Positions 29,070-38,387 of a DNA stretch of 38,387 bases are shown here, in pieces. The position numbers and the translations under genes are program-made. Where the stretch lies: positions 37,072-75,458 of the forward strand of contig PMES01000123.1 of NCBI GenBank assembly GCA_003154775.1, read 5' to 3'. The notes below the pieces were generated by a model. That model saw only the letters and a program-made list of their open reading frames with translations, made no database searches and was not told the DNA's origin. This stretch comes from Acidobacteriota bacterium (GTDB lineage Bacteria > Acidobacteriota > Terriglobia > Acidiferrales > UBA7541). Each line of letters starts with the position of its first letter. The first letter of the stretch is position 1.

Positions 29070-29146
29070 GCGCCCGTAGCTCAGCTGGATAGAGCGCTTG
29101 CCTCCGGAGCAAGAGGTCGGGAGTTCGAATCTCCCTGGGCGCGCCA
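29070..29146 (+). tRNA. tRNA-Arg (CCG), integration site of the element
   Basis: A 77-base tRNA with acceptor pairing GCGCCCG/TGGGCGC, D arm GTAGCTCAGCTGGATAGAGC, anticodon loop CTCCGGA giving CCG, T arm GGTCGGGAGTTCGAATCTCCC shortened here to its loop TTCGAAT, and encoded CCA. The integrase gene ends 15 bases past its 3' end, so its 3' half probably forms the left attachment site. Confidence 0.95.
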
Positions 29147-29161
29147 CTTAATCCTGAGAAA

Positions 29162-30355
29162 TCAATTAATTGGCGAAGCCGCCTCTTCTGTACTGCCACT
29201 TTCTACGGCGTTTTTGGGAACACTTGGGAACAATTGCCCCTCAAGGAGGTTCACAGCCTCACGCTGCGCAATCACGCTGGCGTGTGTATACACCTCGAGG
29301 GTTGTTGCCAAGTCTGAATGCCCAAGTTGGGCCTGTGCGACCTTTAGGGGAGTTCCCTGGACATGCAAGAGCGTCCCGTGGGTGTGGCGAAGCGCATGCC
29401 AACTCAACCTTGGGAGCCCAGCACGTTTGCATGCTGATCGTAATCCCCTGTTCCGTAAATTGTTGGATGCTAAGGGACCGCCGTTGCGAGTGGCGAATAC
29501 CAAAGCCTCGGCGTTGCGATCTGCAGAAATAGAGAAATGGGCCTTCAATGCTTCTACAACTGCAGGCGACAACGGGACCTCCCTCCTGCTAGCACGGGTC
29601 TTTGGTGTACCAAATCGCCCCAAGTAGCAAGTCTCCGCGACAACCAACGTCTGCCTGATGAAATCTATGCGTTTCCACCGCAATGCCAGGATTTCCCCAA
29701 TCCGCAGTCCAGTCATGGTGGCAAGCAGAACGATGGTCCTGGTTGGTTCTGTACACGCGGCAATGAGACGCCGCGCTTCATCAACATTCAGGAACTGGTG
29801 GGGTCGCTTGAGAAAACGTTCCGGCATCTTCACACCGCGAACGATGTTTTCCGCCAGATAGTCCCAACCGACTGCAGTTCCTAGAACCTTGCTCATTAGG
29901 TTGCGTAGGTGGTTTGCGGTCTCCCAGGCAAACCCTTGCTTGAGTTTTTCCAGAATGTATTGCTGGACCTCGATTCTGGAGATGTCGCACAGACGTTGAT
30001 CACCAAATCGGGGAGTCAAGTGCTTCCGCAGGAGAGCTGAGTAAATCTCCTGGGTAGCAAACTTGAGTGTCGGCAATACTCCCGGCTCGAAGCACTCTGA
30101 AACGAACTTCGAGAACAACATGGTTGCTTCCGGGCGATACTGCCCTTGGTTGATTGGGCTGAGGTGAGCGTCCAAGAGTCTGCGGGCTTCACGTCGACCT
30201 GCGATCTCGCTAACAGGTCCGAGCACTACCGAGCGCATCACCCGGCTAGCCGATCCATCAGCAAGAATCACGTCTTCCCTCCACCGTGCGACCCACACTT
30301 TCCGACGCTTACCACGAACAAATAGACAACCGTTCTGATACTGGCAACGAGCCAT
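29162..30355 (-). CDS. int: tyrosine recombinase (integrase)
   Basis: A 397-residue phage-type integrase. It has an N-terminal Arm-type region (GCLFVRGKRRKVWVARW), a SAM-like core-binding domain at about 100-185 (LRKHLTPRFGDQRLCDISR) and the catalytic domain with Arg218 in TGLRIGE, His320 and Arg323 in HALRHTH, the LGH box in AQLGHSDLATT, and the nucleophile Tyr356 in LEVYTHA. These enzymes join circular element DNA to a chromosomal attachment site, usually in a tRNA gene; the stop lies 15 bases from tRNA-Arg. The frame is open to 30505, but ATG 30355 has GAGGAG 5 bases upstream and is the probable start. The excisionase-like gene lies just upstream on the same strand. Confidence 0.93.
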   Translation of the reverse strand: MARCQYQNGCLFVRGKRRKVWVARWREDVILADGSASRVMRSVVLGPVSEIAGRREARRLLDAHLSPINQGQYRPEATMLFSKFVSECFEPGVLPTLKFATQEIYSALLRKHLTPRFGDQRLCDISRIEVQQYILEKLKQGFAWETANHLRNLMSKVLGTAVGWDYLAENIVRGVKMPERFLKRPHQFLNVDEARRLIAACTEPTRTIVLLATMTGLRIGEILALRWKRIDFIRQTLVVAETCYLGRFGTPKTRASRREVPLSPAVVEALKAHFSISADRNAEALVFATRNGGPLASNNLRNRGLRSACKRAGLPRLSWHALRHTHGTLLHVQGTPLKVAQAQLGHSDLATTLEVYTHASVIAQREAVNLLEGQLFPSVPKNAVESGSTEEAASPIN

Positions 30356-30425
30356 TTTTCTCCTCTCTATTCTGAGGTTGGCTCGTCCGCCATTTCCTAT
30401 GTCACTTCCGAGTGTAACGCGGGTG

Positions 30426-30650
30426 TCAAGCAGCATGATGGCCTCGGCTCTGACGTTTGACCCACGCGTGGATTTCCTCCTCGCGGAAGCGCCAGTATTT
30501 TCCAAGGCGGTAGCCTGGCAATCGTTCTAGAGACCGGTTTCGAGTGCGCCCATAGACCCAAGACACTGGCACGCGTAGGAGCTTTGCTACCTCTTGGACA
30601 GTGAGGAGCTGCCCTTCATCACGTGTTCCGCGCTCTGTGGCTTCGTGCAT
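30426..30650 (-). CDS. excisionase-like helix-turn-helix protein
   Basis: About 74 residues from ATG 30650, containing a MerR/excisionase-type winged helix of the helix_turn_helix_17 kind: LLTVQEVAKLLRVPVSWVYG, then LPGYRLGKYWRFREEEIHAW. Such proteins bend attachment-site DNA for excision or repress the integrase operon. The next gene downstream, 70 bases on, is the integrase. The open frame extends to 30836; GGAGG sits only 2 bases before ATG 30650, unusually close, so the start is uncertain. Confidence 0.78.
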   Translation of the reverse strand: MHEATERGTRDEGQLLTVQEVAKLLRVPVSWVYGRTRNRSLERLPGYRLGKYWRFREEEIHAWVKRQSRGHHAA

Positions 30651-30943
30651 GGCCTCCGAGAAAAGCAGATTGGGCACCTCACTTGCGAGGGCCGCGACCG
30701 TCGATCCCTGAACTTCCGCCAACGTTCGAGACGGTCTTTCTGATCTTGCGGTCGGACTTACTGAGAGGCGCAAGCCATGCACTCTTGGCGAGTCTGGGTT
30801 CTTGCGCGCAGCGAATTGGGTGTTGCGCTGTTTCATGTGGTTGTTCCGGCTTGGTATCCCTCTGGAGGCCCGGGGAGTTGTCGGCTAAAGAATTCTCTTG
30901 GCAACCCTCCCGATATGAGCTAACATCTGACTATGATGGTACA

Positions 30944-30954
30944 CCTACAGTAGG
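30944..30954. promoter_or_regulatory. palindrome CCTAC-A-GTAGG in divergent region
   Basis: A perfect 5-1-5 palindrome 16 bases before the ATG at 30971, in the space between the divergently read excisionase-like gene and the unknown RHH-type gene. It may be an operator for either protein. Short enough to arise by chance. Confidence 0.35.
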
Positions 30955-30970
30955 AGATTATGTCAACTGT

Positions 30971-32125
30971 ATGGGAATCCTCTCCAAGAAACCCCGCCAC
31001 GAGGTCATCTCCATCCGGCTCAACGAGGACCGGCTCAAGCTCCTCGAACGCTATCAAAGGCTCTTGTCCGACCAGACAGGCCGTGACGTCTCTCTGGCCG
31101 AAGCTGCCTTCTTGGTGATCGAGGACCGCGTTGTGGGCATGGACCGCGAGACGGTGCGCCATGAAATGTTGAGCACGCCAACCGCTTCGCTCTACCACAT
31201 TCGCAAGAAGTGGGAGTCACAGCACACTCTGTCCATTGCCGAGTGGGATGTTCTCGCGCTGTACGTGCAGATCGGCACGGAGGAAGATGCCCAGGAGCCC
31301 CCGCTGCTTTGGCCCGCGATACCATCCAGGGAGTCTTATCTCACTCTGCTTGATGCCTTCGAGGCCGTCTATCAGAACCGGAAGAAGCCAGCTTCGAAGC
31401 ATGTCTGGTATTACTTCGGAAACCTCGGTGGCCACTCCACGGACGTTCGGCTCTCCGATGATGACGCCGAGCAGAGGCACCAAGCAGTTCTGAAGCAGAT
31501 TGCGATTCGCAAGGAACTGCTGAAACCGTCCGAGAAATGGCAAAGCCCTGGCACGGTCGGCGGATGCTTTCTCACCGCGATCCGTGATGAAGGAGTTGAG
31601 AGTGCCAGACTCGACCAAATCCTTGCCCCCTATTGGACGACTCTCTGGGGCCTTGCCGCTCGGGGCCATTGGGTGCGGCACGATCGCCAGCCGGTGCGAC
31701 TAGCAAGCCACAGCGAGGATGATTTTCGCCGCCGAATTATTCTGTCTGATCTGCTGGAGTCCGATGAGCTAAAGCTGTCGTTCACCACGGATGCCTGTCC
31801 GGAATTGGGCGTGAATATCGATCTCGGCCCAGTGCGCCGGGTGAGCTATCTCATTGCACGGTATCCCAACCTGGCCGAGTTCCACGCCATGCTCGAAGGA
31901 TGGCCGGCCAAGCGTTCTTGGAACGGCAGGCATTTCCTTATGACGCGGGCCAAGGAGAAGGGGCCAGCGAAGTTCACGCTTTGGCTCCGGCAGAGCGATG
32001 TGGGCATCGAGTTCACCGAGAAGGAATGGGACGCCCTTCGCGAACTATTCCAGAAGGTGTGGGCCATCCCCGAGGTTCAGCGGTGGTTGCAGGAGCTTCA
32101 ACTCGAGTATGGCGAACAGGGTTGA
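30971..32125 (+). CDS. unknown protein with RHH-like N-terminus, mobile-element passenger
   Basis: About 384 residues from ATG 30971. The first 50 residues (HEVISIRLNEDRLKLLERYQ and GRDVSLAEAAFLVIEDRV) look like a ribbon-helix-helix segment: a beta strand followed by two helices. The remaining part is a soluble mixed alpha/beta protein with many Trp residues (VWYYFGNLGGHSTDV, then GHWVRHDRQPVRL and WPAKRSWNGRHFLMTRAKEKG) that I do not recognise. It ends in EWDALRELFQKVWAIPEV. A GGAG lies 16 bases upstream, rather far; the longer frame to 30623 overlaps the opposite-strand excisionase gene and is rejected. Its place between integrase and mobilisation genes suggests an element-specific regulator or maintenance factor; the function is unknown. 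Confidence 0.65.
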   Translation: MGILSKKPRHEVISIRLNEDRLKLLERYQRLLSDQTGRDVSLAEAAFLVIEDRVVGMDRETVRHEMLSTPTASLYHIRKKWESQHTLSIAEWDVLALYVQIGTEEDAQEPPLLWPAIPSRESYLTLLDAFEAVYQNRKKPASKHVWYYFGNLGGHSTDVRLSDDDAEQRHQAVLKQIAIRKELLKPSEKWQSPGTVGGCFLTAIRDEGVESARLDQILAPYWTTLWGLAARGHWVRHDRQPVRLASHSEDDFRRRIILSDLLESDELKLSFTTDACPELGVNIDLGPVRRVSYLIARYPNLAEFHAMLEGWPAKRSWNGRHFLMTRAKEKGPAKFTLWLRQSDVGIEFTEKEWDALRELFQKVWAIPEVQRWLQELQLEYGEQG

Positions 32126-32235
32126 TGGCGAGAATCGCTGTTCGTGCCGCACCTTGCGAAGAACGGTGCCTTCGGCACCGGGTGGGGGGAATGACACGTC
32201 ACCCCGTTTCGGGTGCTGTACAGCAACCAAGGTTG

Positions 32236-32325
32236 CCATACGGGAACTTACTGCAAACGCGGCAGCTAGCAACTTTCCGCTCTTCAAGGTCCCTGTGCTC
32301 CAACCTGTGGTTCCCGTATGGGAAC
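32236..32325. repeat. two inverted copies of a 12-base motif, possible operator or origin site
   Basis: CCATACGGGAAC (32236-32247) and GTTCCCGTATGG (32310-32321) are exact reverse complements 62 bases apart. The second extends to the palindrome GTTCCCGTATGGGAAC (32310-32325). They lie in the 268-bp gap before the RHH/MobC-like gene, where an origin of transfer or an autoregulatory site would be expected. No other gene is seen in this gap. Confidence 0.55.
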
Positions 32326-32393
32326 TTGTTGATTCTGTTGGGCGGCTGACCGCGCCTAATTTCCTGCCTTTCAATTAGATTCAGGAGTGCTCA

Positions 32394-32723
32394 ATGCCCA
32401 CACCACGCAGTAAATCCATCAGCACCAAAGTCACCGAAGAGGAGTACGCGCAGTTTGAAACCCTCGCGGGCGATCAAACGATGAGCGAGTGGGTGCGCGA
32501 TGCTTTGTTGAAGGCAGCTAGACCAAGTCCGGCCGAGCAGACCATTGTGGCGGAATTACTGGCACTGCGAATGATCCTGATGAATATCCTGTTCACCATT
32601 GCCAATCGGGAACCACTTACAACCACGGCCATGGACGACATTATTCAACGGGCCGATGCAAGCAAGTCGGCGAAGGCATTGGAACGGCTGACAAGGGCAA
32701 CTACGGGGCCACAGAGAGGCTGA
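32394..32723 (+). CDS. RHH / MobC-like mobilisation accessory protein
   Basis: A 109-residue protein beginning MPTPRSKSISTKVTEEEYAQ and continuing with LAGDQTMSEWVRDALLKAA, the strand-helix-helix pattern of plasmid relaxosome proteins of the MobC and CopG type. It has a helical tail with a hydrophobic stretch (LLALRMILMNILFTIA). Such proteins bind the origin of transfer and help the relaxase open the DNA. AGGAG precedes the ATG. It is followed within 26 bases by the coupling-protein-like gene and then the relaxase stub, the order expected in MobF-type elements. Naming as MobC-like is from pattern. Confidence 0.7.
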   Translation: MPTPRSKSISTKVTEEEYAQFETLAGDQTMSEWVRDALLKAARPSPAEQTIVAELLALRMILMNILFTIANREPLTTTAMDDIIQRADASKSAKALERLTRATTGPQRG

Positions 32724-32748
32724 GAGACAACCCAATCGGAGCGAAGCA

Positions 32749-33621
32749 ATGCCCATGGAATGGAGCCAAGCAAAGAGGACGAGCAGGCCGAGCATTCAGC
32801 CGGTCTATACCTATGCCCTGGTGCTCATCTCCCTCGCGGCAACTCTTGGAATCCAGGGCTTCCGTTACATGCGGGTCTGGACGCCCCTCGAAAGACATTA
32901 TTTGCCTGCCTATCTGGGCTCGCAAATGGCGGGTATAGTGCGGGACAACGGTTCGTACACGCTGCTGCAGGTTGTCACACGGAAGGGGAGCCGAGTGGCA
33001 CTGGACAGTGATGTGGTACCCGCGATGTCGGACAGCGGGCAGAATGTCTTCGCGCTCACCGAGGAAGCCGTGAAGCATGGCGGGCTGCGTCTTGAAATCC
33101 ATCGCGCCGATTACAACAACGCCGAGATGCACGCCTACCTTGGCAACTTGATTTATCGGAACCAAAATCTCGTGGATCTTGTCCGGCTTGCTTTGTGGGG
33201 CGGGCTGGTCATGTTTTTCGCGGGCGTGTTGCCAGCGACCTATCTGGATGGCAAACGTTCTGTTGCCGTGCGCAATGGGAAGAAACCGAGAAGCCTGGAG
33301 TTGATCCCCGTGGCGCAATTGAACCGCACGCGAAGCTCCCGCGGCTTGGGCTTCGTGAACAGACTTCACACGATGCTGAAGCGAGTGCTGGATATCAACA
33401 AAAAAGTCCACGCCCCGCGGAACAAAGACAACCCTTCTGCTTCGATCGTGGCGGAGCCTTTGTCACAGAAACCGATCAGGATGCCTGCGGCGGTTGGAAC
33501 AGATAACCCGCTCCGGCCGAGCAGCACGCGGCGAGAACCAACACCATCGGAGCAAACGCCGATTCAGGACCAAGAGTTCAAACCCACTGTGAAACCCACA
33601 CCGCGACGATTCTTTGAATAG
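32749..33621 (+). CDS. two-TM protein resembling the N-terminal region of a type IV coupling protein, ATPase core missing
   Basis: A 290-residue protein. TM1 is near 20-40 (YALVLISLAATLGIQGF), then about 100 periplasmic residues, and TM2 near 142-168 (LVRLALWGGLVMFFAGVLPA). A cytoplasmic part follows with GKKPRSLELIPVAQLNRTRS and VNRLHTMLKRVLDINKKVH and a proline- and threonine-rich tail ending PTPRRFFE. Two TMs with a small periplasmic domain is the membrane anchor of TraD/TrwB-type coupling proteins. In a full protein an ATPase with Walker A would follow the KKVH region; none is present, and the frame goes directly into the tail. I infer an in-frame internal deletion. It could instead be a distinct small membrane protein of the transfer locus. 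The gene lies between the MobC-like gene and the relaxase stub. Confidence 0.6.
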   Translation: MPMEWSQAKRTSRPSIQPVYTYALVLISLAATLGIQGFRYMRVWTPLERHYLPAYLGSQMAGIVRDNGSYTLLQVVTRKGSRVALDSDVVPAMSDSGQNVFALTEEAVKHGGLRLEIHRADYNNAEMHAYLGNLIYRNQNLVDLVRLALWGGLVMFFAGVLPATYLDGKRSVAVRNGKKPRSLELIPVAQLNRTRSSRGLGFVNRLHTMLKRVLDINKKVHAPRNKDNPSASIVAEPLSQKPIRMPAAVGTDNPLRPSSTRREPTPSEQTPIQDQEFKPTVKPTPRRFFE

Positions 33622-33627
33622 GAGAAC

Positions 33628-33717
33628 ATGCTCACCATTTCCAAGCCGCTCAGTGCAGGTCAAGCGCGTACTTATCATCAGGAGGAGTTCAGCAATGCGC
33701 AGGGGGAGACAATTTGA
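33628..33717 (+). pseudogene. MobF (TrwC/TraI) relaxase, 5' stub of 29 codons
   Basis: ATG 33628, with GGAG 6 bases upstream, begins MLTISKPLSAGQARTYHQEE and continues FSNAQGETI before TGA at 33715. The opening MLTI..LSAGQA..YH..EFSNAQ is the N-terminus I know from MobF relaxases, where the catalytic tyrosine pair normally follows within the next residues (ENYY). Here the frame breaks just before it. The rest of the roughly 900-residue gene is absent: the opposite-strand TOTE gene follows within 160 bases. This is a deletion junction between transfer module and cargo. Confidence 0.8.
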
Positions 33718-33875
33718 AGCTTCAGTTTGATCATTCTTCCGTTTTTTCGTGCGGAATATGCCTTCTGGAAGTTGCATCCTTGGCAATCCCCCCGGTACGG
33801 CGCCGAGTTCTTCTTATATCCTCACAACTTGCAGCGACGCGCTTTTCTCCTCTCTTCATAATTGCAGTCGCGGCA

Positions 33876-36305
33876 TCAACTCCGAACCACATCGACAACC
33901 GTATAGCCGAGCGCAGAATCCCCTGCAAGCCGCTTCTTGTACATGCGAGCCAGCATAGGCACCATCACATCCGCGTAGTCGTAGACGTGGACTTCGCTCT
34001 TGTTTTCGTGCAAGCGATGCAGGCGGCCCACATACTGTTGTAACGTACCTTTCCAAGAAATCGGCATTGCAAGGAGAAGCGTATCAAGACGCGCGTCATC
34101 AAATCCCTCGCCGAGGTAACTTCCGGTCGCTAGGATCACGCGCGGCTCATCGCAAGGAACGGCTGCGAGAGATTCAGCCAGTCTCTTTCTTTGCTTGGCA
34201 CCCATTCCACCCTTCAAAACGAAAATGTGCGGACAAAGCCCACGCAGGCGTTCAGCCAAGTAATCGAGATGTTCCGTCCGACTTGTCAGAACAAGTGGTG
34301 AACGTCCGCTGGACAAAGCCTGCTGAAGATCTTGGACGATCAGGTCGTTCCTGTCTTGGCTAACGATGAGAGCAGCATAAATATCTTGAATGGCTGTCTC
34401 ATTTTCAGGCCGATTCCAACCGAAATCAGTGATCCTGGGGAAGACCTTATGTTGGAGTGGTGAAGACTCGGCAGCTTTCTTCGCGCTGAGATGAAAACGA
34501 ATCGGGCCGCATTGCATGTAGATGACGGGTTGGTGCCCGTCTTTTCGAGTTGGTGTTGCCGTCAATCCCAAAACGTATTTTGCTTTGACTTCGCGAAGGA
34601 CTCGTTCAAACGTGACTGCTGACAGATGATGACATTCATCCACAATCACGTGGCCGTAGTCCGCGACGAAATCTTCAACTGCTCCTTTACGCTGCAAGCT
34701 TTGGATTACAGCAACATCAATCAAACCAGTTCTCTTAGCTTTCCCTCCCCCGAATTGTCCGATGTGCCCAATCGGCAAAGCCAGAAACACCGCTAATCGC
34801 TCGCGCCATTGGTCCATCAGTTGACGCCGATGCACGAGGATCAGGGCGTTGACCGCTCGTTTGGCGATAAGGCAAGCCCCCACCACTGTCTTTCCGAATG
34901 CCGTTGGCGCACATAGTATGCCTTGGTCATACGCAAGCACCCGCTCGATGGCGTCTCGTTGTTCAGGCCGCAATTCACCGTGGAAAGAAACGTCGATTGG
35001 CTGCCCCGCGGTTCGTTCATCATGAACTTCCACATTGACGTGATGTGAGCTGAAAACACGGACTATCTCTTCCATGCACCCTCTTGGAAGGCCGATGTGC
35101 TCGGGGAAGTCTTCACTGCAGGATATGATCCGCGGCTTACCGTAGGTCGAGAGCCGCATCGCTTGAGCTTTGTAAAATTCAGGGTTTTGAAAGGCAGCGA
35201 TGCGAATCAGGCGATCCACCATCGCGGGCGGCAGGCCCCCTTTCTCGATATAGATAAGATTGCTCGCCACGGCACGAACATTCGCAGGTAGCGGACCGGT
35301 GATTTGTCTTTCCTTCCGTTTTCGGGAAGGTCGCCAGAGCCATGGAGCTTCGCCCTCGTCCTCATCGGGCATATGGAGGTGCACTCCGATGGGATTCCCT
35401 TCGGGAGCTATCGAGTGAGTTATTCGAGCGAGCTGATCGATTGGCATTCTCTGAACCGACTCTAAAAACCTCCACTGATCAGGATGAGGCTGAAACAGTT
35501 CATCCAAAAACACGCTGTTGCCTTGCTCTCTGGGACGCTTTTGCAATGGCAACGCAATCAGATTTCCGAAACCGCCTTTGGGCATGATGTCCTGGTTGGG
35601 GAAAAGGCGGTCGTATGAATCAAGGCCGATTTCATGCCTATTCTCCATGGTGCGTGTCAACAAGGCACATCCCAGCCTTCGCGCATCGGCAGCGGACACC
35701 GAACGGTCAAAGAATATCCATACATGCGCGCCATTCCCCGACCGCGAGCGTTCGACTGCGAAGGGGACCTCAAATCGCCTGCATGTTGCGGCAAACGCCG
35801 CTGCATCAGCTACCCAGGATTTCTTGTCGAAATCCACTGCAAGAAACCAGCAGGTGTCGTCAGGCAGAAGCGGGTAAATGCCCACCGTGTGCTTTCCAGT
35901 CAGATGATTACGGATCGCGTCATCCGTCAGTGGCTGGAGCATCCGGGTTTTGCGGGCAACCTTTTTTCGCTCTTCTGGTCTCGCGATATGGATGGCGCGC
36001 CAGTCCATGATGCTAGCAGGTGAATAACCAGATTTGCCGCTCTTTCCTTCCCACCGAGTGGCGAAAACATCTTCGCGCCCACGGAACAGATTTCGAAAGA
36101 GCGAGATTTTCTCTTCTGGCGTGGAAACCCCTCTTTTGGTGCTGGACGAAAGCTTTGGGACCGGGCCGGCTTGGTGAACGGGCTCGTTTGGGGGCAATTG
36201 ATCAATCCCGAGCATCGCACGGAGGCGCGCATTCTCCTCCCGAAGCCGTTGGCATTCCTCTTGCGTTGTTTTCAGGTGCTCTTGAGTATTATCTTGATCA
36301 GGCAT
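33876..36305 (-). CDS. TOTE-type archaeo-eukaryotic primase fused to SF2 helicase
   Basis: About 809 residues from ATG 36305 (AAGGA 8 bases upstream; the frame is open to 36368). After a short coiled coil (TTQEECQRLREENARLRAML) comes an archaeo-eukaryotic primase domain: FRNLFRGREDVFATRWEGK, the metal motif with Asp158 and Asp160 in FLAVDFDKKSW, then ERSRSGNGAHVWIFF, SYDRLFPNQD and FGNLIALPLQ. This is the type annotated as TOTE conflict system primase. The C-terminal half is an SF2 helicase with Lys472 in APTAFGKTVVG, the DECH box at 556-559, LGLTATPTRKDG, and motifs V/VI in GEGFDDARLDTLLLA and QQYVGRLHR. Such fusions are predicted to defend against or compete with mobile DNA; the mechanism is not established. 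It stands alone, divergent from the AbiE pair. Confidence 0.88.
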   Translation of the reverse strand: MPDQDNTQEHLKTTQEECQRLREENARLRAMLGIDQLPPNEPVHQAGPVPKLSSSTKRGVSTPEEKISLFRNLFRGREDVFATRWEGKSGKSGYSPASIMDWRAIHIARPEERKKVARKTRMLQPLTDDAIRNHLTGKHTVGIYPLLPDDTCWFLAVDFDKKSWVADAAAFAATCRRFEVPFAVERSRSGNGAHVWIFFDRSVSAADARRLGCALLTRTMENRHEIGLDSYDRLFPNQDIMPKGGFGNLIALPLQKRPREQGNSVFLDELFQPHPDQWRFLESVQRMPIDQLARITHSIAPEGNPIGVHLHMPDEDEGEAPWLWRPSRKRKERQITGPLPANVRAVASNLIYIEKGGLPPAMVDRLIRIAAFQNPEFYKAQAMRLSTYGKPRIISCSEDFPEHIGLPRGCMEEIVRVFSSHHVNVEVHDERTAGQPIDVSFHGELRPEQRDAIERVLAYDQGILCAPTAFGKTVVGACLIAKRAVNALILVHRRQLMDQWRERLAVFLALPIGHIGQFGGGKAKRTGLIDVAVIQSLQRKGAVEDFVADYGHVIVDECHHLSAVTFERVLREVKAKYVLGLTATPTRKDGHQPVIYMQCGPIRFHLSAKKAAESSPLQHKVFPRITDFGWNRPENETAIQDIYAALIVSQDRNDLIVQDLQQALSSGRSPLVLTSRTEHLDYLAERLRGLCPHIFVLKGGMGAKQRKRLAESLAAVPCDEPRVILATGSYLGEGFDDARLDTLLLAMPISWKGTLQQYVGRLHRLHENKSEVHVYDYADVMVPMLARMYKKRLAGDSALGYTVVDVVRS

Positions 36306-36542
36306 GTGGGTGTTCCTTGCCATCGGTTCCAAGGGTGATCTTATCCGAGGAACGAAACGATCAAACAACCGATATTGCGAGTTGAGTCCGATACCGGAGC
36401 TCTCAAATCCTGAGTCACGAGCGTTCCGTCAACCTGGGGGGCAGCTACGGGAAGTCGCTACCGAACAAATTGTGGTCAGGGTGTAACTCCTTGGAGACCG
36501 CGCTCATACGGGGGAAGTGCAACAACGATTGGTCGGTTTTCA

Positions 36543-36607
36543 GCGTTCGTTATCATTCGCAGAAGTCGCCGAAATATGCTAACTTATGAAAGTGATAGCG
36601 TTCATTA
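36543..36607. promoter_or_regulatory. repeats upstream of abiE, probable AbiEi operator and promoter region
   Basis: The 325-bp divergent gap between the primase-helicase and AbiEi genes contains GCGTTCGTTA (36543) and GCGTTCATTA (36598) as direct repeats, and CGTTATCATT (36548) against AAGTGATAGCG (36590) as an imperfect inverted pair (9 of 11). AbiEi proteins are known to repress their own operon by binding inverted repeats in the promoter, so this is the likely operator. The rest of the gap shows nothing else. Confidence 0.5.
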
Positions 36608-36630
36608 AAACAGCAGACAGGCGTTGAGCT

Positions 36631-37446
36631 ATGCGAGTCAAGAAGCCATCTATACAAGCACGAAATCTATCCGATTTCGTCAACGCGTTGCAATCATCAG
36701 GCCGCTATACTTTTCGACGCGAAGAAGCGCTCTCCGCAATGGATGTATCGGAGGTCGCTCTGCAAAGTGCGGCACGTCGACTCGCAGCAAAGGGGAGAAT
36801 CTGCGCTCCGCGTCGCGGCTTTTATGTCATCGTTCCCATCGAGTATCGCGAAGCTGGGGCTCCACCACCATCGTGGTTCGTTGACGACCTAATGAAATTC
36901 CACGGTCACCCGTACTATGTTGGCCTCCTATCCGCCGCTGCACTACACGGCGCAGCGCATCAACAACCGCAAGAATTTCAGGTCATCACCGATACCGTTC
37001 TTCGCCCCATTACTGTGGGTCGGACTCGAATCCGGTTCTTTCTAAAATTGCACTTCTCTGAAACTCCGACTGTCGAAGTCAAGACTGGAACCGGCGCTAT
37101 GCGGGTGTCAACCCCAGAAGCCACTGCGCTCGACCTAGTCCGCTACGTGGGACACGCTGGGCAGCTTGGAAACGTGGCGAGCGTGCTGTCGGAGCTATCT
37201 GAAAGAATTGATCCGGTACGACTGGTTGAAGCGGCGCGGGCCGAGGTTGAACTTTCCATAGTGCAGCGATTGGGCTTTTTGCTCAACCGCTTCGCTTCCG
37301 AGGCGGTCGTCGCGCCCTTAGCTGAATGGCTCGCCCAAAAGCGACTACGACCGGTTCTCCTGCGTCCTGGGCGGAAAGCCAAGGTCGCCGACAAAGATTC
37401 CCGTTGGCAAGTTTTGGTAAATGAACACATCGAGATAGACGAGTGA
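36631..37446 (+). CDS. AbiEi family antitoxin and repressor (type IV toxin-antitoxin)
   Basis: A 271-residue protein with an N-terminal winged helix (RNLSDFVNALQSSGRYTFRR, then VALQSAARRLAAKGRICAPR and GFYVIVP) and the AbiEi antitoxin domain (YYVGLLSAAALHGAAHQQPQ, then FQVITDTVLRPITVG and RVSTPEATALDLVRYVGHAG). AbiEi proteins counteract the AbiEii toxin without binding it, hence type IV, and repress the operon through the winged helix. Its stop overlaps the start of the toxin gene by 4 bases (GTGA), giving translational coupling. The ribosome site at ATG 36631 is weak. It lies on an integrative element, a usual place for abortive-infection modules. Confidence 0.93.
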   Translation: MRVKKPSIQARNLSDFVNALQSSGRYTFRREEALSAMDVSEVALQSAARRLAAKGRICAPRRGFYVIVPIEYREAGAPPPSWFVDDLMKFHGHPYYVGLLSAAALHGAAHQQPQEFQVITDTVLRPITVGRTRIRFFLKLHFSETPTVEVKTGTGAMRVSTPEATALDLVRYVGHAGQLGNVASVLSELSERIDPVRLVEAARAEVELSIVQRLGFLLNRFASEAVVAPLAEWLAQKRLRPVLLRPGRKAKVADKDSRWQVLVNEHIEIDE

Positions 37447-38309
37447 TCCCGAGCGCCAACATTACCGAGTGGCGAGCGAATGCGCCCTGGTCGACGGACG
37501 CTCAAGTCGAACAGGACTTGGTTATCTGTCGGGCGATAGTCGAAATATTTTCTGATCCCCTACTGTCCGATGGCTTGGCATTCCGTGGTGGCACGGCGCT
37601 TCACAAGCTGTACCTCACGCCACCAGCGCGCTATTCCGAAGACATCGATCTTGTGCAGGTTAAGGGCGGTCCAATCGGCGATCTAATCAACGCTTTGCGT
37701 CGAAAACTCGATTCATGGCTCGGCATTCCCCAGAGGAAACGGTCCGAGGGGCGGGTGGCAATGATCTATCGCTTCGATTCGGAGATACCTCCTATTACAC
37801 CGCTTCGACTGAAAGTAGAAATAAACACACGAGAACATTTTTCCGTGCGTGGATTTAAGCGAAAGCAATTCGCCGTGGAGAGCGCGTGGTTTCGGGGATC
37901 CCAAGAGCTACTCACCTACGAGATAGAAGAATTGCTTGCGACTAAATTGCGAGCTCTATATCAGCGAAGAAAGGGGCGGGACCTATATGATCTCGCCGCC
38001 GCGATCCAGCGGATTCAGCGGCTGGATTTTGCGAAAATCGTAGACTGCTTTAATCGATACCTAGAACATGAAGGGTTGCGCGTGTCTCGGGCGGAGTTTG
38101 AGGCAAACCTCGCTGAAAAGATGGAGGACCCTGAGTTCCACGGTGACATCGGGCCGTTGCTTGTCCCGGGCGCATTCCAAGGAGATGCTTTCAAAAGTGG
38201 CGCCTTTCAAATTAGCACTGCATCATATGATCCGACAGCAGCGTATAGTCGCGTCCACAAAGCCATCATCGAGCGGTTGTCGGGTGATCCTTGGAAGGGT
38301 CGGAAGTGA
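37443..38309 (+). CDS. AbiEii family nucleotidyltransferase toxin
   Basis: A 288-residue protein that starts with GTG inside the antitoxin stop (GTGA). The nucleotidyltransferase core is clear: GGTALHKLY at 49-57 with Asp67 and Asp69 in SEDIDL, then the lysine motif ELLATKLRALYQRRKGRDLY with the third acidic position in RDLYDL. AbiEii toxins transfer nucleotides (GTP in the founding case; some relatives modify tRNA ends) and stop growth on phage infection. All catalytic motifs look intact, so the toxin is probably active. The gene is complete within the window, and 78 non-coding bases follow. Confidence 0.93.
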   Translation: MIPSANITEWRANAPWSTDAQVEQDLVICRAIVEIFSDPLLSDGLAFRGGTALHKLYLTPPARYSEDIDLVQVKGGPIGDLINALRRKLDSWLGIPQRKRSEGRVAMIYRFDSEIPPITPLRLKVEINTREHFSVRGFKRKQFAVESAWFRGSQELLTYEIEELLATKLRALYQRRKGRDLYDLAAAIQRIQRLDFAKIVDCFNRYLEHEGLRVSRAEFEANLAEKMEDPEFHGDIGPLLVPGAFQGDAFKSGAFQISTASYDPTAAYSRVHKAIIERLSGDPWKGRK

Positions 38310-38387
38310 TAACTGCCGACCACGCCCCGCTTAGCCAGAGCCCTTATTCTCCCTTCACCCCAACGATGGAGTGAACCCTTGAACTGA

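Follow-up and report, generated by a model that had tools for sequence, protein, structure and literature searches.

Conjugative coupling proteins are defined by their motor, the nucleotide-binding domain (PMC7431656), and the C-terminal tail of one of them, TraD of F, is bound by TraM (PMC6362355). For the relaxase TrwC, the hairpin loop at the origin of transfer (oriT) can vary freely; what is required is the proximal arm together with the bases leading up to the nick (PMC4176350). The terms iMOB and iOriT are those of PMC11389934. Here we describe a genomic island integrated at a tRNA-Arg gene in a window of 38,387 nucleotides, the whole stretch of DNA analysed, which forms the right end of contig C33 (G000:C33:37072-75458) of an Acidobacteriota draft genome in 150 contigs; the sequence to the right of position 38387 is unassembled. 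The island retains an integrase gene, an excisionase-like gene, a gene called ORF388, an oriT-like block, a ribbon-helix-helix (RHH) gene and the gene of a coupling protein without ATPase domain. Its relaxase is reduced to 25 homologous codons, and it carries TOTE and AbiE genes. On balance, we regard it as a non-autonomous, oriT-bearing member of a family of tRNA-integrated MobF elements, which would be mobilisable in trans by the relaxases of its siblings.

A first-pass annotation of this DNA had described a decayed mobilisable island, in which both the relaxase and the coupling gene had been damaged. The loss of the relaxase was confirmed, but the coupling gene is a conserved form and not a product of decay, since the same short form adjoins intact relaxases in seven other elements. 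The protein of the window (290 amino acids) matches residues 39-268 of the 702-amino-acid TrwB-type protein of a sibling (E 9e-34), and its N-terminal membrane domain is homologous to that of full-length coupling proteins. A form of 288-291 amino acids, with no stop, is present in 8/8 elements (C33, C150, C92, C57, C54, G034:C150, G020 and G025; G034 is a genome of the same genus). Compared with the full-length relative in G001, it aligns to just before Walker A and then from the post-ATPase linker to the C-terminus. The nucleotide-binding domain with Walker A is absent in this alignment, and no Pfam match was obtained with the window protein (at E 0.001) or the C150 protein (at E 0.1). A different excision, from a protein of the C14 kind, characterises C74 and G034:C71 (the tail alignment is poor there and the join was read by eye); membrane domain and C-terminal tail are retained in both excised groups of the genus. 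A third short group lies outside the genus (L185, L186, L187 and L042), again with membrane domain and tail encoded between the RHH and relaxase genes. Among 11 short or odd coupling frames fetched from outside the genus, L185, L186 and L187 are ATPase-less beside a near-full MobF gene, seven are copies cut at a contig edge, frameshifted or broken in another way, and L188 gave neither a coupling nor a relaxase match.

In a tree of 23 rows, the first short group forms one clade next to the full-length G001 protein (100/99), the second sits among full-length proteins, and the starred branches require at least three changes between full and short forms. The simplest reading would be three losses of the ATPase domain, if full length is ancestral; alternatively, one gain and two losses may be placed on the same tree, the position of the third group being unsure and its branches long. 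The N-terminal domain occurs in at least 89 of the 399 genomes of the class, and most frames among the matches listed are full length. In the genus, 16 places are found among the matches listed, with 10 ATPase-less forms, 4 full-length ones and 2 cut by contig ends. A structure model of the 290-amino-acid protein is confident over about residues 13-180 and disordered in the remainder (mean predicted local distance difference test score 63.1), with no PDB match at E <= 0.001. When full-length rows are included in the profile, TrwB is matched (1e9r, E 3.8e-7) at profile positions 218-330. A plasmid search yielded two matches, both distant, and in each case the annotation is a secretion-system DNA-binding protein. 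No report of an ATPase-less coupling protein was recognised in the titles and abstract openings covered, and no paper combining Acidiferrum and mobile genetic elements was found; most subscription papers lie outside this coverage.

A genome search, a tRNA scan and a reference-protein scan identified seven left ends of the family in this genome, each with an integrase adjoining a different tRNA gene: Arg(CCG) on C33, Leu(TAA) on C150, Lys(TTT) on C14, Lys(CTT) on C147, Met on C134, Ala on C74 and Asp on C10. When a 924-amino-acid sibling relaxase was used as query, six full or near-full relaxases were recovered (C150, C57, C92, C54, C14 and C60) in addition to the C33 stub, and the query otherwise matched only a helicase-type protein on C109 (29% identity). 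The TrwC relaxase domain PF08751 is recognised in the siblings (C150, E 2.8e-85; C14, E 4.9e-86); the six siblings possess a relaxase of their own and the island does not. Two of the six relaxases were assigned by contig continuity (C150 and C14, each carrying left end and relaxase on one contig), two by the right-hand attachment site attR (the tRNA end at C147 recurs as a 37-base copy on C57, and that at C10 as a 48-base copy on C92) and two by module type only. Indeed, the tRNA-Met repeat was not found in the first 80 kb of C54, nor the tRNA-Ala repeat in C60, and these pairings are based on resemblance. C54 was paired with C134 through the tRNA-Met element of G025, which shares 87% identity with C134 at the left end and 88% identity with C54 in the relaxase. 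C60 was paired with C74, its relaxase being 97.5% identical to that of G034:C71, where the coupling gene is of the C74 kind. As each full relaxase is assigned to another element, none remains for C33. The presence of a full relaxase in another part of the island, which would have contradicted the loss, is therefore largely set aside, the gap before contig C118 staying unassembled. Pairwise dN/dS (ratio of nonsynonymous to synonymous substitution rates, NG86 method) indicated strong constraint on the sibling relaxases (0.107-0.150, 21 pairs), with values of 0.066-0.224 for the RHH gene and 0.092-0.196 for ORF388 (28 pairs each). In this set, one in-frame stop was seen in the RHH stretch of G025 and one in the integrase stretch of G001.

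The intergenic stretch ahead of the RHH gene (268 bases) contains two hairpins, which we consider a probable, candidate oriT on the basis of conservation and pattern. The first reads CGGTGCC-TTC-GGCACCG at 32164-32180, and the second, on the minus strand, reads CACCC-loop-GGGGT-NN-CGTGTC. The block is present in this stretch of 13 elements, with a variable loop between invariant CACCC and GGGGT-NN-CGTGTC, and so it fits the TrwC rule (PMC4176350). Windows of 10 bases hold up to 8 invariant columns inside the block and mostly 0-2 further off, with a few at 3-5. The derived pattern gave 19 matches in 10/36 congeneric genomes and a reversed-pattern control gave 0; twelve of the 19 matched elements had served to derive the pattern and seven matches were new. 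An RHH gene follows 15 of the 19 matches, including three of the new ones. On the contigs of the four others, G007:C374 (L140:4167), G014:C234 (L141:1154), G018:C298 (L142:309, the match lying 309 bases from the contig end) and G018:C381 (L143:6444), no RHH, coupling or MobF gene was recognised, and these lone copies may be solo oriT copies or remnants of other islands. The pattern did not match the C14 block, part of which is masked (N); the block of the window is intact. The nick is predicted near 32192/32193 on the minus strand; ORF388, the excisionase and the integrase genes would then lead into the recipient, with the RHH, coupling and relaxase genes entering at the end.

Just ahead of this block lies ORF388 (384-388 amino acids), a conserved core gene of the family. 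Residues 255-374 of its model superimpose on the PUR repeats of human PURA (Z 10.9, root-mean-square deviation 2.8, 113 residues), whirly proteins reach about Z 6, and Foldseek alone gives E 0.08. PUR and whirly families bind single strands, and our guess from the model is that ORF388 might handle the transferred strand.

Taken together, these results suggest the following scheme. The island would be excised by its own integrase, a MobF relaxase from one of the six siblings would nick its candidate oriT, and the strand would exit via the type IV secretion system of a helper. The ATPase-less protein would serve as an adaptor, whose membrane domain docks on the channel or the coupling ATPase of the helper and whose C-terminal tail holds the relaxosome, so that the element would not have to encode a motor. 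A possible motor is the full-length coupling protein of C14, to which the sole PF10412 match in the genome belongs. Several points weigh against this scheme. Transfer of the island is inferred and its right part is unassembled. VirB4-like genes are represented in the genome by just two weak matches, both on C58, which leaves the helper uncertain, and G025 has the short form but no PF10412 match. The short coupling protein (dN/dS 0.316-0.642, 28 pairs) is less constrained than the neighbouring genes. Finally, ORF388 gives somewhat higher values when the window is one of the pair (0.119-0.196, 7 pairs) than otherwise (0.092-0.143, 21 pairs), a hint of relaxed constraint.

This last observation would also agree with plain decay, in which a deletion took the relaxase and left an immobile defence island, with oriT, RHH and coupling genes as undegraded leftovers. 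The relaxase is indeed gone, the relatives G011, G017 and G007 have degraded relaxases with stops, and a recent loss would give the same picture. However, the integrase, excisionase-like, ORF388, RHH and coupling genes are all open in the window, both attachment repeats are intact and the oriT block fits the family pattern, and we consider decay rather unlikely. A competitor role for the ATPase-less protein appears doubtful to much the same extent, if slightly more so: it would occupy the channel of the helper or enter its coupling hexamer, thereby restraining the helper's own transfer. The membrane domain has been kept and the motor dropped, and a chimaeric coupling protein was negatively dominant over native ones (PMC7431656), but the C-terminal tail has been kept as well and, in the short groups, the gene has retained its place between those of the RHH protein and the relaxase, both of which fit an adaptor better than a competitor. 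The two roles could also be combined.

The remaining alternatives concern the junction at which the relaxase is cut, homology to the sibling relaxases ending after codon 25, at about 33703. The first-pass annotation had proposed a cargo-swap hotspot at 33.7 kb, and this was not supported. An alignment of seven elements with full relaxases stays conserved in every row until 2 bases past the relaxase stop codon (the pairs C54-G020 and C92-G034:C150 remaining alike further on), and this stop codon, not 33.7 kb, is the usual border between core and cargo in the family. Moreover, the matches listed for 36 congeneric genomes include a single contig that spans the junction, that of the window itself. 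A TOTE gene 90% identical to that of the window lies in G034:C35, about 0.3 kb from a 19-base tRNA-Ala repeat, in an element of the same family, and C54 encodes a 1213-amino-acid Dsr2-like protein 3.5 kb after its relaxase (L012:7782-11423, PADLOC E 5.1e-147); defence cargo is therefore a habit of the family. A fixed TOTE-AbiE unit was considered and rejected, as the 16 kb of sequence retrieved around the TOTE gene of G034:C35 contains no match to AbiE. At L055:8472-10621, an AbiEi-AbiEii pair directly follows an integrase at tRNA-Ser and AbiEii is fused in frame with residues 682-888, the C-terminal part, of a MobF relaxase. Together with the stub of the window, this places AbiE at a relaxase breakpoint in two cases. 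This fusion, and the start codon and 25 codons kept by the stub, would suit an insertion of TOTE and AbiE into the relaxase gene with its remainder in the unassembled gap beyond 38387. The 924-amino-acid query revealed no orphan C-terminal relaxase piece of the family in the genome, which the assembly may lack, and we judge such an insertion improbable. An assembly join uniting a left part and a TOTE-AbiE part from different places is conceivable in a draft genome where several sibling contigs break within the shared core, but is very improbable: exact matches to five siblings that end near the junction reach 17 bp at most, which makes a repeat-driven misjoin unlikely, the sequence right of the junction has no second copy elsewhere in the genome, and an element of this family in G034:C35 also has TOTE as cargo.

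Features of the island in the window, with coordinates counted from the first base of the window and the evidence for each assignment.
Feature	Coordinates	Strand	Basis
tRNA-Arg(CCG), integration site	29070..29146	+	tRNA scan
attL-side copy of 53-base repeat	29097..29149	+	attR partner C118:126-178, 53/53
Tyrosine integrase	29162..30505	-	PF00589 E 9.3e-31; phrog_1
Excisionase-like helix-turn-helix protein	30426..30836	-	PF12728 E 1.3e-12; TIGR01764 over its cut-off
ORF388, conserved core gene, PUR-like C-terminal domain in model	30971..32125	+	N-terminal RHH is our reading
oriT-like block (candidate), two hairpins	32164..32215	.	conservation and pattern search
RHH accessory protein, MobC/TrwA-like by position, 109 amino acids	32394..32723	+	
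ATPase-less coupling protein, 290 amino acids	32749..33621	+	homology to TrwB-type sibling protein
MobF relaxase stub, 29 codons, 25 homologous	33628..33717	+	homology ends ~33703
TOTE primase-helicase, 830 amino acids	33876..36368	-	PF22548 E 3.6e-94; PF04851 E 1.9e-21
AbiEi antitoxin	36631..37446	+	E 2.3e-35
AbiEii toxin	37443..38309	+	E 2.7e-36

The initial gene inventory stood for every gene that it listed, and overlooked ORF388 and the oriT-like block. A mobilisable element does lie at tRNA-Arg, with its integrase gene 15 bases from the tRNA gene, an excisionase-like gene, and a MobF relaxase cut to a stub, 25 codons of which match at 96%. Pfam matches confirmed the TOTE gene and the AbiE pair that follow; the AEP-TOTE primase domain and the helicase of a TOTE conflict system are both present, and AbiEi and AbiEii are in tandem. 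The MobC-like gene is also present, but as no library names it (its only match is PF07336, below its cut-off) its RHH identity is our reading of sequence and position; it gave no useful PDB match. The island has a tyrosine integrase at a tRNA gene and direct repeats at both ends, the expected copy of the tRNA-Arg 3' end having been found on C118. In G034:C1, the flank of the window and that of C118 are syntenic on opposite sides of tRNA-Arg, about 1 kb near the tRNA gene being unmatched on each flank. The final 56 or so bases before attR look, by eye, like the right end of the C57 element. Profile-library scans found no mating-pair genes in the sequenced part of the island. A palindrome at the contig end (38354-38375) occurs once in the genome with up to 3 mismatches allowed.

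Some further features were noted in the sibling elements. In the Leu (L009:6558-7862) and Lys(TTT) (L013:8776-10005) elements, the integrase frame overlaps the tRNA gene on the opposite strand. The Asp element has an open frame of 3628 amino acids after its relaxase (L010:4880-15766), and the Lys(CTT) element has three tandem integrase-like frames beside attR (L011:12247-15142).

More broadly, and more tentatively than for the island itself, the coupling protein of MobF elements of Acidobacteriota may repeatedly have become an ATPase-less membrane adaptor, linking the relaxosome to a foreign motor, with the island as a next step of reduction in which a sibling relaxase is borrowed as well. If so, a motor-less form that evolved repeatedly and was kept would separate docking from pumping in conjugation, and would offer a simple way of testing which part is responsible for recruiting the relaxosome. 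The family, with seven copies of which one lacks a relaxase and is loaded with phage-defence genes, is also a natural case in which to ask whether mobilisable islands live off their siblings.

Among known systems, the island resembles iOriT elements, which are tRNA-integrated, have their own integrase and a probable oriT, lack a relaxase and depend on others (PMC11389934). It differs from them in that its presumed relaxase donors are six siblings in the same genome, and in that it keeps an ATPase-less coupling protein and an RHH gene. With R388 it shares the trwABC order of RHH accessory gene, coupling gene and MobF relaxase, and the TrwC-type hairpin and conserved bases ahead of the expected nick (PMC4176350, PMC4853378). 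Unlike R388, it is integrated, has no secretion genes of its own in the part seen, and has a motor-less coupling protein and a relaxase stub. MobB of CloDF13 is likewise a coupling protein supplied by a mobilisable element to a foreign secretion system, but has a cytosolic domain and belongs to a MOBC1 plasmid (PMC7431656), whereas the protein of the island has no ATPase domain and the siblings are MobF. Finally, SGI1-type islands, likened here by description, are mobilised in trans by other elements, as is predicted for this one; SGI1 depends on IncA/IncC plasmids, whereas the island would depend on its siblings.

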